64,000 nt of DNA from Longimicrobiales bacterium (GTDB lineage Bacteria > Gemmatimonadota > Gemmatimonadetes > Longimicrobiales > Gaopeijiaceae). Within the stretch, counting starts at the first letter, position 1. Every line of letters begins with the position of its first letter. Shown one piece after another: positions 20,101-27,539 of this stretch. The notes below the pieces were generated by a model that had not been told where the DNA came from, did not search any database, and saw only the letters and a program-made list of their open reading frames with translations. Made by a program: the position numbers and the translations under genes. The DNA is taken from NCBI GenBank assembly GCA_951828585.1, contig OX639991.1:3950001-4014000 (forward strand). Reading direction: 5' to 3'.

Positions 20101-20694
20101 TCAGCCCCCGACCTGGAATCGTGAGAACCGCGCCACCCTGATCTTCTCTCCGGTACGGGCCGAGACTTCGGTGATGAGTTCACCGACGCTCCGGTCCGGA
20201 TCCTTCACGTACGCCTGCTCCAGCAGCACCCGTTCCCTGTAGAACTTGGCCAGCTTGCCGTCGACAATCCGGTCGCGGATGTGTTCGGGCTTCCCTTCCA
20301 GGGCCACCTGTCCCATGAAGACCTTGCGTTCCCGTTCCACGACCGATGCGTCCAGGTCCTCGGTGGCGACGGCGATGGGGTCCGATGCGGCCACGTGCAT
20401 GGCGATGTCCCGGGCCAGGGTCTGGAAGCCGTCGGTGTTGGCCACGAAGTCCGTCTCGCAGTTCAGCTCCACCAAAACGCCGATTCGCCCGCCGTGGTGG
20501 ATATAGCTGGTGACGGTGCCTTCGTTTGCGGCCCGCGCGGCCCGCTTGGCGGCCTTCGCCTCACCCTTGCTTCGCAGCAGGTCGATGGCGGCTTCGATGT
20601 CGGCGCCGGTGGCCTCCAGCGCCCGCTTGCAGTCCATCATCCCCACCCCGGTCCGGTCACGGAGCTCCTTCACCAGTTTCACGCCGATCTTCAT
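20101..20694 (-). CDS. tsf: Elongation factor Ts, short form
   Basis: Nucleotide-exchange factor for EF-Tu. It starts MKIGVKLVKELRDRTGVGMMDCKRAL, containing the RxRTGxGMMDCKxAL signature of the UBA-like N-terminal domain. It continues into the core (IHHGGRIGVLVELNCETDFVA) and ends at 197 residues. This is the short, single-subdomain type known from Thermus and many other phyla, not a truncation. It is separated from its usual partner rpsB by an IS element and a repeat (20809-22460). Confidence 0.95.
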   Translation of the reverse strand: MKIGVKLVKELRDRTGVGMMDCKRALEATGADIEAAIDLLRSKGEAKAAKRAARAANEGTVTSYIHHGGRIGVLVELNCETDFVANTDGFQTLARDIAMHVAASDPIAVATEDLDASVVERERKVFMGQVALEGKPEHIRDRIVDGKLAKFYRERVLLEQAYVKDPDRSVGELITEVSARTGEKIRVARFSRFQVGG

Positions 20695-21110: not shown

Positions 21111-22127
21111 TCAGGCGACAGCGCGGTACGCCTCCTTCCTGGCGGCCAGGGCCCAGACCCTCCGCGCCGTCCTGTTGGCGAGCGCTACCGCAACCAGCTT
21201 CCTGGGCTTGCGCGCCAGCATCCCGGCCAGCCACGGATCCGCAGCCTCACCGCCCCGGCTCGCATGCCGAATGACCGCCATGGCTCCCGTGACCAGGAGG
21301 CGTCTCAGGTCGCGCTGGCCCATCTTCGATATCCTGCCCAGCCTCGGCTTGCCGCCGGTGGTGTGCTGCCGAGGCACGAGGCCGAGCCAGGCCGAGAAGT
21401 CGCGCCCGCACCGGAAGCCCTCCATCGGCGGTGCGAAGGCCTGGATGGCCATCGCGGTGACCGGCCCGATTCCGGGGATCGTCATCAGACGCGCCGTCTC
21501 TTCACACTCCCGGGCGCTCACCCGGATCTCGCGGTCGAGCCCATCGATCTTCTCGTCAAGCTCATCGATCCGACCGAGCAGCAGACGGCCCAGCTCGACG
21601 ACCGCCTCCGGAAGGCCACAGTCGCCGTCCTCGAGCACCCGGGCCAGCTGCCCGATCCGGGACCTGCCCTGCGGAGCCACAACGCCGTACTCGGCCAGGT
21701 GGCCCCGAAGCGCGTTGATCGTCTGCGTGCGCTGGCGCACCAGCAGGTCACGGGTGTGAAAGAGCATCCCCCGCGCCTGTTGCGCCTCGGTCTTTACCGC
21801 CACGAAGTGCATCGTCGGACGCTGCGCGGCCTCCGTAATCGCCTCCGCGTCGGCCGCGTCGTTCTTGTGGCGCTTGACGAAGGGCTTCACGTAGATCGGA
21901 GGAACCAGCCTCACCTCGTGGCCGAGTGCCATGATCTCCCGGCCCCAGTAGTGGGCGCTGGCGCACGCCTCCATCGCCACCGCGCAAGGCGGCTGCGCGG
22001 CGAGAAAGCCCAACAGCTTCCCGCGGCTCAGCTTCCTGCGGTACGCCACCGACCCGTCCGCCTTGGCCCCGTGCACCTGGAAGCTCCGCTTTGCCAGATC
22101 GATCCCGATGATGCTAACCTCTTCCAT
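21111..22127 (-). CDS. IS1111-group transposase, copy 1
   Basis: 338 residues from the ATG at 22125-22127 (MEEVSIIGID); longer upstream frames run into the repeat. The DEDD RuvC-like residues are D10 (GIDLAKRSF), E53 (AMEACASAHYW), D90 and D93 (KNDAADAEA). A coiled linker is followed by the Tnp_20 domain with TIPGIGPVTAMAI and GLVPRQHTTGGKPRLGRISKMG. The residue aligned with the usual catalytic serine appears to be Thr256. It differs from copy 2 at about seven residues. The enzyme should excise and insert the element using the RNA from its 3' end. Confidence 0.9.
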   Translation of the reverse strand: MEEVSIIGIDLAKRSFQVHGAKADGSVAYRRKLSRGKLLGFLAAQPPCAVAMEACASAHYWGREIMALGHEVRLVPPIYVKPFVKRHKNDAADAEAITEAAQRPTMHFVAVKTEAQQARGMLFHTRDLLVRQRTQTINALRGHLAEYGVVAPQGRSRIGQLARVLEDGDCGLPEAVVELGRLLLGRIDELDEKIDGLDREIRVSARECEETARLMTIPGIGPVTAMAIQAFAPPMEGFRCGRDFSAWLGLVPRQHTTGGKPRLGRISKMGQRDLRRLLVTGAMAVIRHASRGGEAADPWLAGMLARKPRKLVAVALANRTARRVWALAARKEAYRAVA

Positions 22128-22217
22128 GTGGATGCCTCCTCCCTCAGATGGTTCGACATATCGCTCAGTACCATCTTGGCACATTGCGATGCCGTCGGGA
22201 GGGGGCGTCCACTCCAT

Positions 22218-22460
22218 CGTGGATAAAGCCGCCCGAGCACCGAGAGCGGCGAGGCGCCGGGCTGGCAAGGCGCGACGAGAGGTGAATAGCACCGCTATTC
22301 GCCCGAGGAGCAACGCAGAGCGAAGCCTCGGAACCGCCGAATGTATACTGTGATTGACAGAATGTAACGTTGTCTTTACCTCGTGAACCGGCGAAGCGAA
22401 GCGGTCCAGCGCGGATGCATCGCCGCTCGAATGCCGGGGGATCTTATCCACGGGCTGCTA
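22218..22460 (+). repeat. Dispersed structured repeat, long form, copy A (interrupted by IS)
   Basis: Together with 20810-20819 this makes an intact unit of about 251 bp, split by the IS at a CG. The inverted ends are AGCAGTCCGTGGATAAAG and its counterpart reading CTTATCCACGGGCTGCT. Internal hairpins are GAATAGC-ACC-GCTATTC and GCGCC-10 nt-GGCGC. An AT-rich block (about 22335-22375) marks the long form. The right end supplies the TAG stop of rpsB (22458-22460). Confidence 0.88.
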
Positions 22461-23390
22461 GCTCGCGGGGGGCCCGGACTCGCCCTTCGACTCCGGCGTC
22501 CGCTTGCGGCGGCGGGGACGCTTGGGCGCTCCTTCGCCCTCGCCCGCCTTCCGCACCTGCGCGATGGCTTCGGGCCGGGGGCGCCGCTTCCGTGGACGGG
22601 GTCTGAACTCACGCGTGTCGGCGGTCTTCTCACCGGTTTCGGTGGAGTAGGTCGTCGCCCCGAGCTCGGCCTGCCGTCTGAGCTGTTCGTCGGGCACCTC
22701 GCGGCGGGCGATCTGGATCGTCTCGGCGATTCGGCCCGCGATCAGGTTGACGGAGCGGATGGCGTCGTCGTTGCCGGGGATGGGGTAGTCGATGAGAGAC
22801 GGGTCCACATTGGTGTCGGCAATCGCGATGACCGGAATCCCGAGCCTGTGAGCCTCGCGCACCCCTATGATCTCGCGCCTGGCGTCGACCACGAAGATGG
22901 CGCCCGGCAGCCGCACCATGTCGCGCAGGCCGATGAAGTACTTCTCCAGCTTCACGCGCTCCCGCTCGAGGAGCAGGCGCTCCTTCTTGGTGTAGAACTC
23001 GAAGGCGTTCTCTTCCTGGCCGCGTTCGAGCTCCTTCATCCGGCGAATCTGACGGCGGATGGTCTGGAAGTTGGTGAGCATTCCCCCGAGCCAGCGCTCG
23101 GTGACGTAGAGCGCGCCGCAGCGCTCGGCCTCCTCCTCGATGACTTCCCGCAGTTGCCGCTTCGTGGAGAGGAAGAGGACTCTCTGGCCCTTGAGCACGA
23201 CCCTGCGCACCGCTTCGCACGCCTGGTCCAGCCGATCGAGGGTCTTGCGCAGGTCGATGATGTGGATCCCGTTGCGCTCTCCGAAGATGTAGGGGCGCAT
23301 CTTGGGGTTCCAGCGTCTGGTCTGGTGCCCGAAATGGACACCGGCATCCAGCAGATCGGTCAGTCCGACGTTGTCTTCGGCAGGGTTCAT
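22458..23390 (-). CDS. rpsB: 30S ribosomal protein S2
   Basis: Core S2 sequence from the ATG at 23390: [23 protein letters not shown], then [60 protein letters not shown] and [25 protein letters not shown]. After about residue 230 there is a basic, Pro/Arg-rich tail of roughly 75 residues ([26 protein letters not shown]) not found in most S2 proteins. A longer upstream start would read into repeat B and is rejected. The stop codon TAG coincides with the end of repeat A. Confidence 0.95.
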
Positions 23391-23404
23391 GAAAGTGGGT
23401 CGCC

Positions 23405-23580
23405 TAACAGTCCGTGGATAGAGCCGCCCGAGCACCGAGAGCGGCGAGGCGCCGGGCTGGCAAGGCGCGACGAAAGGTGAATAGCAGGGCTATTCGCCCG
23501 AGGAGCAACGCAGAGCGAAGCGGTCCAGCGCGGATGCATCGCCGCTCGAATGCCGGGGGGATTTTGTCCACGGGCTGCTA
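23405..23580 (+). repeat. Dispersed structured repeat, short form, copy B
   Basis: 176 bp between rpsB and rpsI. The ends AACAGTCCGTGGATAGAG and TTTTGTCCACGGGCTGCTA are inverted copies. It has the hairpin GAATAGC-AGG-GCTATTC and lacks the AT-rich block of the long form. Its right end overlaps the TAG stop of rpsI (23578-23580). The IS target sequence is intact, so this is an empty site. Confidence 0.88.
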
Positions 23581-24503: not shown

Positions 24504-24532
24504 ATCATATCCAGACCGTTGAAGCGTGTCAA
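24504..24532 (-). promoter_or_regulatory. Sigma70-like promoter for the rplM operon
   Basis: On the minus strand TTGACA (24532-24527) is followed after exactly 17 bases by TATGAT (24509-24504). It is the best consensus promoter in the window. Transcription would start near 24497, about 75 bases before the rplM GTG, leaving room for an L13-type leader. The -35 overlaps the end of the upstream cytochrome gene. Confidence 0.8.
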
Positions 24533-26259
24533 CGGGATGTGGCAGCGGAATCCCGGGCGATCAGAAGCGCCGACGCGTGGGCCATCTCCCGGTAATACCG
24601 TACGAAGCGCCGGGTCTCGGGCGAGTCGTACCCGGCCAGGTTTTCTGCCCAGCGGTATCCGATCGGCTGGAACCAGAGTTCGGCCTCGACCGTGAAGGGG
24701 CCGTCCTCCGGCTTGACGGGGACCGTGTAGTGCACCCCGTCGGATCCGGCGGCGAAGTCCGGGTCGCCCGCCGCGATGCCGACGACCTGCACGCGGGGGT
24801 CGGCGCGCGCGGGATCGAAGCCATCGGGGAGGATGCGGTTGTCCTTCACCCACGCGTGCGCGGACATGAGACCGGTGGTCACCGCTCCACCCCCGTCCAC
24901 CATGACGGCCTGGTAGATCTGCACCTCATCCGGCGAGGTGATCACGGTGTGGTGGGGCTCGTAGAGCGAGCCGTCGGCGTCGTGGTCGTCGCCCATGACG
25001 CGGCCGTCGGGTGAGAAGGCGCCCGATTCGAACACCCGCTCTCCCCATGTGTCCGTGACGGCGAAGCGCAACCAGGCCCGCCGCGAAGGATAGGCCGTCG
25101 GAAACTTGTGGCCGGCCTGGTTGCGCACGGTCACCGTGGCTTCGAGCCGTTCTCCCCCGACACCCGCCCCACTGATCTCGACGCTGGCGGTGGCGGTGCG
25201 GAGGTGGTCGGCGGTGCGCTTGGCCGCGAGCTCCATCTCCTGTGGCAACGCGGTGACACCGAGTTCGTCTCGGTAGCGGTTCAGCATGCGTAGCATGAAG
25301 AAATTGCCGCCGCGGAAGACGTGCCGGGAGACCTCGGGGCGGGCGCGGCCCAGGACCCCGGTGACCGGGACATCCTCGCCGACCTCTGGCATGTGGCAGT
25401 CCTGGCAGCTGTGCTCGCGCTCCGCGCCGTCCGCATAGACGCTCGCCTGCCACTCGAGGAAGGGGGACTGTTCGGGGAATGGGGGACCTTCTCCACCGGG
25501 CCGCACGGCATGGGTGATCACGGTATGACACGAAGCACACAGCCCCGATGACGTCACGTGTTCTCCCTGGGCGGGGCGGAACCCGGTGGCCGAGTGCATG
25601 ATGCCCTCGCCGCCCTGGTCGGGTTCGAAGGGGCCGAAGATGGTGCGACCCTCGTCGGGCGTCTCGCTCTCGATGCGGAAGCGCGCGGTGAAGGTCTCCT
25701 CCGTGCCCAGGCCGTCCGGCTGGATCTGGTGGCAAAGGGAGCAGGAGACGCCGTCGGCCGCGAGGTCGGCGTAGGGTCCATCCGCGCCTCCGATCGGAAG
25801 GTTGGCGAAGACCTCGCCGGAACGTCCGTCCTGCAGCGCTGCGACGGTGGCCATCGGCATGTGGCAGCGCGAGCACTCGCCTTCGATCGCGGCCGCAGCC
25901 TCGGGATGGTCCATGACCTCGCGCCGCACCGCGGCCTGGAAGTACGGATCGCGGGCGCTGTTGGCCATCATTGAGGCGCGCCAGTCGAAGCCGATCGAAA
26001 CGTCGGTGCCATCCGGGGCGGAGACGCTCTTGTGGCAGGCGATGCAGCGGTCGGCGGTGTGGAAGTTGTCGGTGGGATCGAGTGGGACGGTCGCCTGGAC
26101 GGGCAAGGAGGCGCCGGGCGAAGGGAGACCGGACGTCGGGCCGTCGGGGCGTGGCGCGCTTCGTGCCGGGGCACCCGCCGCAATCAGCAGGCTGCCCAGC
26201 AGGGCGCAGGCGGTCGTGAGCCCGCCGATCGGAAGGCGGAGGAGCGGCATCGTCACCAT
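24529..26259 (-). CDS. Periplasmic pentaheme cytochrome c
   Basis: 576 residues with a hydrophobic export signal (about residues 12-35). Five haem-attachment motifs are visible: CIACH, CSRCH, CSLCH, CASCH and CQDCH, all within the first 300 residues. The remaining 270 residues are beta-rich with no haem motif (NQAGHKFPTAYPSRRAWLRF), resembling the C-terminal part of cytochrome c554-like or uncharacterised multihaem proteins. It is probably an electron carrier or reductase in the cell envelope; the substrate is not evident. It overlaps the upstream cytochrome-barrel gene by 7 bases, so the two are very likely coupled and partners. Confidence 0.8.
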   Translation of the reverse strand: MVTMPLLRLPIGGLTTACALLGSLLIAAGAPARSAPRPDGPTSGLPSPGASLPVQATVPLDPTDNFHTADRCIACHKSVSAPDGTDVSIGFDWRASMMANSARDPYFQAAVRREVMDHPEAAAAIEGECSRCHMPMATVAALQDGRSGEVFANLPIGGADGPYADLAADGVSCSLCHQIQPDGLGTEETFTARFRIESETPDEGRTIFGPFEPDQGGEGIMHSATGFRPAQGEHVTSSGLCASCHTVITHAVRPGGEGPPFPEQSPFLEWQASVYADGAEREHSCQDCHMPEVGEDVPVTGVLGRARPEVSRHVFRGGNFFMLRMLNRYRDELGVTALPQEMELAAKRTADHLRTATASVEISGAGVGGERLEATVTVRNQAGHKFPTAYPSRRAWLRFAVTDTWGERVFESGAFSPDGRVMGDDHDADGSLYEPHHTVITSPDEVQIYQAVMVDGGGAVTTGLMSAHAWVKDNRILPDGFDPARADPRVQVVGIAAGDPDFAAGSDGVHYTVPVKPEDGPFTVEAELWFQPIGYRWAENLAGYDSPETRRFVRYYREMAHASALLIARDSAATSR

Positions 26260-27539
26260 CCCTCGAAGAATCCGCCGTCGAACCAGTCGAGGAGGAGATA
26301 GGCCAGAAGGCGCAACGGAGGACGTTCGCCGGCTTCCGCGCCGGTCGGGATCAGGAGCCCGACGTTGGCCAGAACGTGTTGGCGGGTGTTGAGGGAGAAC
26401 TGGACCTGGGGCACCAGGTCGATGCGCGTCCCGCCCCCCCCTTCAAGGTCGCGTTTGGCCTGCACTTCCAGCATGGGCGACCACGCGCGCCCCCACTTCC
26501 CCTCCGTCCACGTTCTGCCCACCAGAATGCGCCCGAACCCCTCGCTGGCCGCACCGTCGTACAGGGGCACGGCCGCGCCGGCCTGGGCCTGCAGGAAGGC
26601 GTCGGAGGGCAGGATCTGGCCGAGCGAGAGGAAAGCCTCGACCTCGGTTCCCGGGGCACCCAACCCGGCATCTTGGTCGCCCGTGGGGAGAATGACCTCG
26701 CCCATCAGGGAGACGATCGTGCCCGCGCCGAGGTCGTGGTACAGTGAGTGCTTGACTGCAAGCACCAGGTCGCCGATCCCGTGGCTGGCCCCCTCGGTCG
26801 AGTGCGCGTCGTCGTGATCGTCGTGGTTGTCCTCGTCGCCGCCCCCCCTACGCCAGCCGTACGGGATCACCACTTCGATCTGGCTGCGCGGCCCGAAGCG
26901 CTGCTCGTAGACGTACGCCCCCATCGCGCTGCCTTCGCTCTCGAGGTCCACCCCCACCTCCACCACCCATTCGTCCTCGGGGTAGGCCTTCTCGGTGAGC
27001 AGGGCGCGGGGAAGGTTCAGTTCCCCTCTCGGCCAGTTCTGGTCGGTGCAAAGCGTGCGGATGTATCCCATCACCCGCCCGAGCTGCTCCTCGGTGAGCG
27101 CGCCGCGGAAGGCGGGCATCATTTCGCTGAAACCGCGCACCGGGCCGCCCTCGTGCGCCACCGCGATCCAGTCGGCGTCGGGCTCGCGCGCTGCGAAATC
27201 GCAGTCGGAGAAGTCGGGAAGCTCCTCCTCGAAGGCGACCAGGGAGGGGGCGAGGCCGGTCCCGTCGAGCCCGTGGCAGTTCGCGCACGACGCCGCGTAG
27301 ATCGCCTCGCCGTCTGCGTCTGCCAACTCGGCTCCGACACTGCCTGGCTGGAGCTGGGCGGTCAGGGGGGTTGCGAGCGTGAGGACCCACAGTGGCAGCG
27401 CGCTTGCAATCCATCGGCGGCACCGACGGCGTGGGGCGGAGTCGCGGGAGCGGGCTACGTAGGGGACGAGAGCAGGCACTCGAACCTCGGCAAGTGTGAC
27501 GCTCGGCTTCCGAGCGCGGAGCGGACCATGGGGACGCAA
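26253..27539 (-). CDS. Cytochrome c fused to a probable outer-membrane barrel
   Basis: 428 residues; the real start may be 15-20 codons in. An arginine-rich leader and hydrophobic stretch (WIASALPLWVLTLATPLTAQ) form a signal peptide. A mono-haem domain follows with CANCH (about residue 92) and a distal Met region (FSEMMPAFRGAL). The last 270 residues alternate polar and hydrophobic residues in strands ending in aromatic residues, finishing FDGGFFEGW with a C-terminal Trp, as in outer-membrane barrels. A His/Asp-rich loop (GGGDEDNHDDHDDAHS) lies between strands. The barrel call is inference. It is coupled to the pentaheme gene and may pass electrons across the outer membrane. Confidence 0.7.
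   Translation of the reverse strand: MRPHGPLRARKPSVTLAEVRVPALVPYVARSRDSAPRRRCRRWIASALPLWVLTLATPLTAQLQPGSVGAELADADGEAIYAASCANCHGLDGTGLAPSLVAFEEELPDFSDCDFAAREPDADWIAVAHEGGPVRGFSEMMPAFRGALTEEQLGRVMGYIRTLCTDQNWPRGELNLPRALLTEKAYPEDEWVVEVGVDLESEGSAMGAYVYEQRFGPRSQIEVVIPYGWRRGGGDEDNHDDHDDAHSTEGASHGIGDLVLAVKHSLYHDLGAGTIVSLMGEVILPTGDQDAGLGAPGTEVEAFLSLGQILPSDAFLQAQAGAAVPLYDGAASEGFGRILVGRTWTEGKWGRAWSPMLEVQAKRDLEGGGGTRIDLVPQVQFSLNTRQHVLANVGLLIPTGAEAGERPPLRLLAYLLLDWFDGGFFEGW

Follow-up and report, generated by a model that had tools for sequence, protein, structure and literature searches.

A cytochrome c–outer-membrane barrel fusion with exchangeable redox partners: a candidate redox module in Gemmatimonadota and other phyla

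What can a cytochrome with a single haem do when it is fused to an outer-membrane barrel and encoded together with a multihaem protein? The question is raised by two overlapping genes, here called A and B, which are flanked by rng (RNase E/G) and rplM and share the minus strand with both, in the window (the whole stretch of 64,000 nucleotides that was analysed). The original prediction, made from the sequence, had placed here a gene joining one CANCH motif to a strand-rich C-terminal part, overlapped by a downstream gene with five CxxCH motifs. Both reading frames were found in these positions, and the C-terminal part of A is indeed rich in strands and ends in GW; the corrections concern the start of A and the details of the overlap (Table 1). 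The open frame of A extends from TTG 27539 to 26253, and its likely start is GTG 27479, with GAGG five bases upstream; residues of A are numbered from this codon. The overlap with B amounts to 4-7 bases, depending on whether B starts at ATG 26259 or GTG 26256, and is lost if the alternative ATG 26250 is used, which has a GAGGG in the end of A nine bases before it. As this GAGGG resembles a Shine-Dalgarno sequence and lies inside A, the sequence makes translational coupling of the two genes likely. Elsewhere in the window, a gene for an IS110-family transposase (Transposase_20, DEDD_Tnp_IS110; 21111-22451, minus strand) separates rpsB (22458-23435) from the apparent tsf (20101-20694), in a translation operon that is usually compact.

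Table 1. Features of the A/B locus in the window and cupredoxin-like genes at related loci
Feature	Position	Strand	Remarks
Gene A, cytochrome c–outer-membrane barrel fusion	26253..27479	-	408 aa, GTG start; open reading frame and homologues
Class I cytochrome c domain (Cytochrome_CBB3 / Cytochrom_C)	27045..27326	-	with conserved Cys93-Cys144 pair
Haem motif CANCH	27273..27287	-	residues 65-69 of 408
Distal Met121	27117-27119	-	conserved motif
Linker WPRGELNLPRALLTEKAYPED	26973..27044	-	24 residues, nearly invariant; probably enters barrel mouth
Predicted 12-stranded outer-membrane beta-barrel, COG4313 / Phenol_MetA_deg-like	26286..26972	-	Pfam, model, fold matches
His/Asp-rich extracellular loop 2 (EC2)	26790..26846	-	residues 212-230; variable, not defining
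C-terminal tail WFDGGFFEGW	26256..26285	-	conserved, past last strand
Gene B, pentahaem cytochrome c	24529..26259	-	signal peptide and C-terminal Ig-like region
B haem motif 1, CIACH	26032..26046	-	
B haem motif 2, CSRCH	25861..25875	-	
B haem motif 3, CSLCH	25729..25743	-	
B haem motif 4, CASCH	25525..25539	-	
B haem motif 5, CQDCH	25393..25407	-	
Part of B Ig-like region, motif GHKFPTAYPSRR	25015..25164	-	with His384 and Tyr390
Cupredoxin-like gene, locus L117	9099-9905		in B's slot
Cupredoxin-like gene, locus L134	2609-3364		in B's slot
Cupredoxin-like gene, locus L148	9127-9900		in B's slot

Architecture of the two proteins

The N-terminal part of A is recognized by Pfam as Cytochrome_CBB3 (E 3e-10) and Cytochrom_C (E 1.5e-8), and these families (PF13442 and PF00034) match 79/79 homologues. 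Cys65, Cys68, His69, and the Met121-Pro122 motif are invariant in the 79-row alignment, with a constant distance of 60 residues between CxxCH and Met-Pro in 78 of the 79 proteins. The motif thus points to an ordinary class I cytochrome c whose haem has His/Met ligation. Cys93 and Cys144 are also nearly invariant and may form a disulphide. In two homologues (L034 and L036), the chain continues beyond the GW with an additional CxxC (GWKGWCPGCEP and GWKGRCTGCEH).

For the C-terminal part, an AlphaFold2 model built on the 79-row alignment predicts a 12-stranded outer-membrane barrel with high confidence (mean pLDDT 85.2, pTM 0.81; twelve long strands spanning residues 170 to 398), as the original prediction had supposed; a single-sequence run reached a pLDDT of only 35. 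Foldseek ranked FapF first and the COG4313 channel next, and VIA-align gave similar values for both (FapF, Z 19.9 over 221 residues at 2.6 Å; 4rl8, the COG4313 channel, Z 19.5 over 219 residues at 3.0 Å); the barrels of KdgM, NanC, and autotransporters followed with Z 14-17. Neither the model nor these fold matches support a soluble jelly-roll or propeller, the result that the original prediction had named as its refutation. FapF is an amyloid exporter of the fap operon with a 12-stranded barrel and an N-terminal coiled-coil, and it passes unfolded chains; the N-terminal domain of A is a cytochrome. Beside the barrel fold, A shares a weak sequence match with the COG4313/Phenol_MetA_deg channels (Pput2725, 4rl8): PF13557 scores 23.2 bits in A, just above the cut-off of 22, and matches 64/79 homologues at E up to 0.1. 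A therefore has both the predicted 12-stranded barrel and the family match that define this group, although COG4313 channels have neither a haem domain nor a cytochrome partner.

In the COG4313 structure, an N-terminal segment that precedes strand 1 fills the lumen, which would be 10-12 Å wide without it (PMC4493636). As the alignment with 4rl8 begins with its residue 2 on residue 161 of the A model, the near-invariant linker of A (residues 146-169) probably occupies and plugs the lumen in the same manner. The cytochrome domain, being too large for the lumen, would have to sit at the periplasmic mouth. The conservation map, drawn under the usual assumption that both termini are periplasmic, gave higher mean values for the periplasmic turns (0.75), linker (0.82), and C-terminal tail (0.88) than for the strands (0.62) and extracellular loops (0.52), with 0.95 for the LNTRQH turn. 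These values indicate that the conserved face of A looks inward, to the haem domain and a periplasmic partner, and no conserved extracellular site was seen among the 79 homologues. The His/Asp-rich loop to which attention had been drawn does exist, as EC2, but it is not conserved, and a functional role for it finds no support: at least three His are found in only 11/79 homologues, and the idea of a metal site was rejected on account of this variability.

B contains five CxxCH motifs followed by an Ig-like region with GHxxP, the combination that defines the pentahaem superfamily and that it shares with c552 of T. tepidum (5ze8), MccSep, ExtKL, and the cable-bacteria PHC. The similarity is distant (E 9e-6 to 0.01): the B profile matches 5ze8 at E 9e-6, mostly via the Ig-like region, and MccSep more weakly, again mainly through this region, where Tyr390 (99% conserved) aligns with, and replaces, the selenocysteine of MccSep. 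ExtKL of Geobacter likewise has a selenocysteine, unlike B, and the ExtKL equivalog NF040886 gives B 24.5 bits against a cut-off of 250, with weak matches to 22/23 B members. Judged by sequence, B is a distant relative of the ExtKL/c552 family. In work on cable bacteria, ExtKL and c552 were assigned to a single pentahaem family, for which a link to the archaeal nanowire protein AvECN was also drawn (PMC11976967). Besides the His of the CxxCH motifs, only His234, His313, His384, and His436 are conserved above 95%. With four additional His for five haems, four haems may be bis-His-ligated and one Met-ligated or open. Lipobox-like Cys residues are only scattered and mostly lie in out-of-gene extensions, so B was rejected as a lipoprotein. 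Distant relatives of B (E about 1e-85; G242:C317:3930-5534 and G285:C53:39777-41369), perhaps another pentahaem subfamily, occur in genomes without a match to A.

Distribution of the pair and exchange of the partner

A search of genome contigs for A yielded 298 relatives, from which we kept 80 loci. Matches at E up to 1e-10 occur in 67/298 genomes of the window's phylum, some by the cytochrome domain alone. The 80 loci come from Gemmatimonadota, Acidobacteriota (with Aminicenantes), Latescibacterota, Balneolota, Rhodothermota, and Pseudomonadota, and include those of two isolates, Fodinibius sediminis (L112) and Rhodohalobacter sulfatireducens (L122). Homologues of A are full-length across phyla, with a mean column identity of 46%, and the fusion is therefore not a chance event. 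More distant full-length homologues (L037-L048; 28-35% identical) have neither a pentahaem nor a cupredoxin gene next to them.

The pair itself is conserved and adjacent across several phyla, with B directly downstream of A on the same strand in 72/80 loci. All paired loci but one encode a B with five CxxCH motifs, the exception having four, and in the phylum sample 35/35 genomes with a strong B match have an adjoining A. The distances of A and B correlate at 0.91 (shuffled maximum 0.12), which indicates that the two genes travel together and does not separate co-evolution from common descent. A wider operon was considered and rejected, as the most frequent neighbour other than A and B is present at just 10/80 loci. 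At one locus (L115:8917-12333, genome G124), a masked stretch (X) cuts the B frame, and a second B fragment (profile positions 413-559) lies elsewhere in the genome.

Eight loci lack B. One ends just after A (L121), two have no redox neighbour (L132 and L138), and five (L117, L134, L148, L150, and L153) encode a cupredoxin-like protein in B's slot. This protein is exported, has 250-270 residues, and carries TLHNV and CDIHGWM motifs followed by a carboxypeptidase-regulatory-like domain (CarboxypepD_reg). We read the two motifs as those of an amicyanin-like type 1 copper site (C-x2-H-x2-M). Pfam gives the copper domain no name, so that the apparent type 1 site, and with it the cupredoxin assignment, rests on the motif. 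The same replacement was found in the four whole-genome loci of family f7 that lack B (L080-L083), some or all of which belong to the same species as the five loci above. On the tree of A, three changes of partner state are needed. That two unrelated redox proteins occupy one slot is the best evidence that A serves electron transfer, and a barrel-cytochrome with interchangeable redox partners argues for such a role. As a suggestive parallel, Cyc2 of Acidithiobacillus has rusticyanin as its partner, which likewise is a cupredoxin (PMC10654088).

Relation to known systems

The locus had been proposed to encode a conduit of a type distinct from MtrAB and porin-cytochrome pairs. The difference from MtrAB is supported: the predicted barrel has 12 strands, the haem protein is fused to it, and PF11854, the family of the 26-stranded MtrB/PioB barrels, has no match in A or in the genome. 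Moreover, MtrAB, PioAB, and MtoAB have a decahaem MtrA-type partner inside the barrel, whereas the partner here, B, has five haems. A fusion of haem protein and barrel is, however, not new as a type. Cyc2 is a fused cytochrome-porin iron oxidase (PMC8406198), and Cyc572 of Leptospirillum combines a cytochrome with a 16-stranded PorB-like barrel (PMC10654088). Like Cyc2, A has a signal peptide, an N-terminal domain with a single c-type haem expected at the periplasmic mouth, and a C-terminal barrel in one chain. Unlike Cyc2, its modelled barrel is of the COG4313 type with 12 strands instead of 16, its haem domain is a full class I cytochrome c with a Met ligand, the protein lacks the PXL motif, and a gene for a fixed pentahaem or cupredoxin partner lies beside it. 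The Cyc2 motif AXPXFAR[QK][TY] upstream of CXXCH (PMC8406198) is found in 0/79 homologues and is absent from the window protein. Set against Cyc572 by its description, A is again a cytochrome-barrel fusion, with 12 strands versus 16.

The pairing of a barrel with a pentahaem cytochrome of B's superfamily also has a precedent. In Geobacter, the genes for the outer-membrane barrel ExtI and the periplasmic pentahaem cytochrome ExtKL occur together, and deletion of extHIJKL lowered Fe(III) citrate reduction (PMC6148476), while deletion of extI lowered selenite and tellurite reduction (PMC5877670). However, ExtI is haem-free and far larger than A, and no rhodanese-like gene was seen beside the A/B pair, in comparison with ExtHIJKL. 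Both ideas, the fusion (Cyc2, Cyc572) and the barrel with a pentahaem protein (ExtI-ExtKL), are thus already known. No description of the A fusion or of the A/B pair was found in the full-text literature searched (few subscription journals, no preprints), nor was the combination of a small COG4313-type barrel, an interchangeable partner, and taxonomic breadth.

Proposed function and alternatives

The evidence is strong for the fusion itself, for the barrel as predicted, for conservation of the pair, and for the partner swap, and from these we infer how plugging, docking, electron exchange with the outside, and the direction of flow might fit together. The class I cytochrome c domain of A, with its Met ligand, would be held at the periplasmic mouth of the barrel, and the conserved linker would enter from below and largely plug the lumen. 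The exported pentahaem B would dock on the conserved periplasmic face and exchange electrons with the haem of A, a cupredoxin taking its place in some relatives. A small redox-active molecule would pass through the barrel to this haem, a route that has been proposed for Cyc2. Class I haems with His/Met ligation usually have a high potential. For c552, the relative of B, a low potential is indicated by the title of Chen et al. 2019 as cited in PMC11976967, and outward flow from B to A would be favoured if the haems of A and B resemble these.

As an explanation of the whole, we lean, by a modest degree of confidence, towards A and B forming an outer-membrane redox module that exchanges electrons with a small molecule outside the cell. 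The term "envelope electron conduit" keeps its basis in the barrel, the fusion, and the conserved pair, but overstates the case: with only one haem beneath a narrow and probably plugged barrel, A cannot on its own carry electrons across the outer membrane, and the genes next to the pair do not encode an extracellular haem protein. Against a redox port also speak the periplasmic position of the conserved surface, the closest sequence family of the barrel, which is tied to the uptake of hydrophobic compounds and not to electron transfer, and the loci that have neither B nor a cupredoxin next door (L037-L048, L132, and L138). The probably plugged lumen, the uptake-linked family, and the lack of a conserved outer site give real weight to two other readings.

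One is that A does no more than anchor a periplasmic cytochrome in the outer membrane, with B or the cupredoxin as its periplasmic partner, for instance as an oxidoreductase of oxyanions or sulfur compounds, and with no electrons leaving the cell. We consider this unlikely. In its favour, conservation lies on the periplasmic face while the extracellular loops vary, the closest channel structure has a plugged lumen (PMC4493636), and a haem of B that may be open or Met-ligated would fit an enzyme. However, a simple anchor would not need a conserved barrel lumen, and many charged and polar strand residues are conserved over phyla; a lipid anchor would also be cheaper.

A slightly more doubtful reading is that the COG4313-like barrel imports a hydrophobic or aromatic compound, or an oxyanion, which the periplasmic haem proteins would oxidize or reduce on entry. 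The PF13557 matches in the window protein and most homologues agree with it, as do the link of COG4313 channels to the uptake of hydrophobic molecules (PMC4493636) and the effect of ExtI loss on selenite and tellurite reduction (PMC5877670), but no catabolic or transport genes are conserved by the pair (none recurs in more than 10/80 loci). Finally, it is most improbable that a FapF-like barrel secretes or anchors B, taken as a relative of the filament-forming cytochromes of archaea, to form a haem fibre outside the cell. In structure, FapF does match A best, and the pentahaem family is linked to AvECN (PMC11976967). However, a folded pentahaem protein would not fit through a plugged 12-stranded barrel, its haems would already be attached in the periplasm when export began, and comparison of B with solved structures gave no sequence match to AvECN.

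We retain the redox module as the best explanation. The broader proposal, that A represents a separately evolved class of cytochrome-barrel fusions forming a modular outer-membrane redox port in at least six phyla, with a plugged 12-stranded barrel of the COG4313 type and a periplasmic dock for a pentahaem or blue copper protein, is more tentative, and we hold its chances to be a little under even.

Catalogues of outer-membrane electron transfer have been built mostly on Mtr, Pcc, Ext, and Cyc2. If the proposed function is true, this two-gene module would extend extracellular redox chemistry to lineages that are not usually counted as electroactive, namely Gemmatimonadota, Acidobacteriota, Latescibacterota, and some Balneolota, Rhodothermota, and Pseudomonadota, many of them known only from MAGs. 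As the module is carried by the isolates F. sediminis and R. sulfatireducens, it is open to experiment, and the partner swap provides a natural experiment in the choice of a redox partner by a haem tethered to a barrel.
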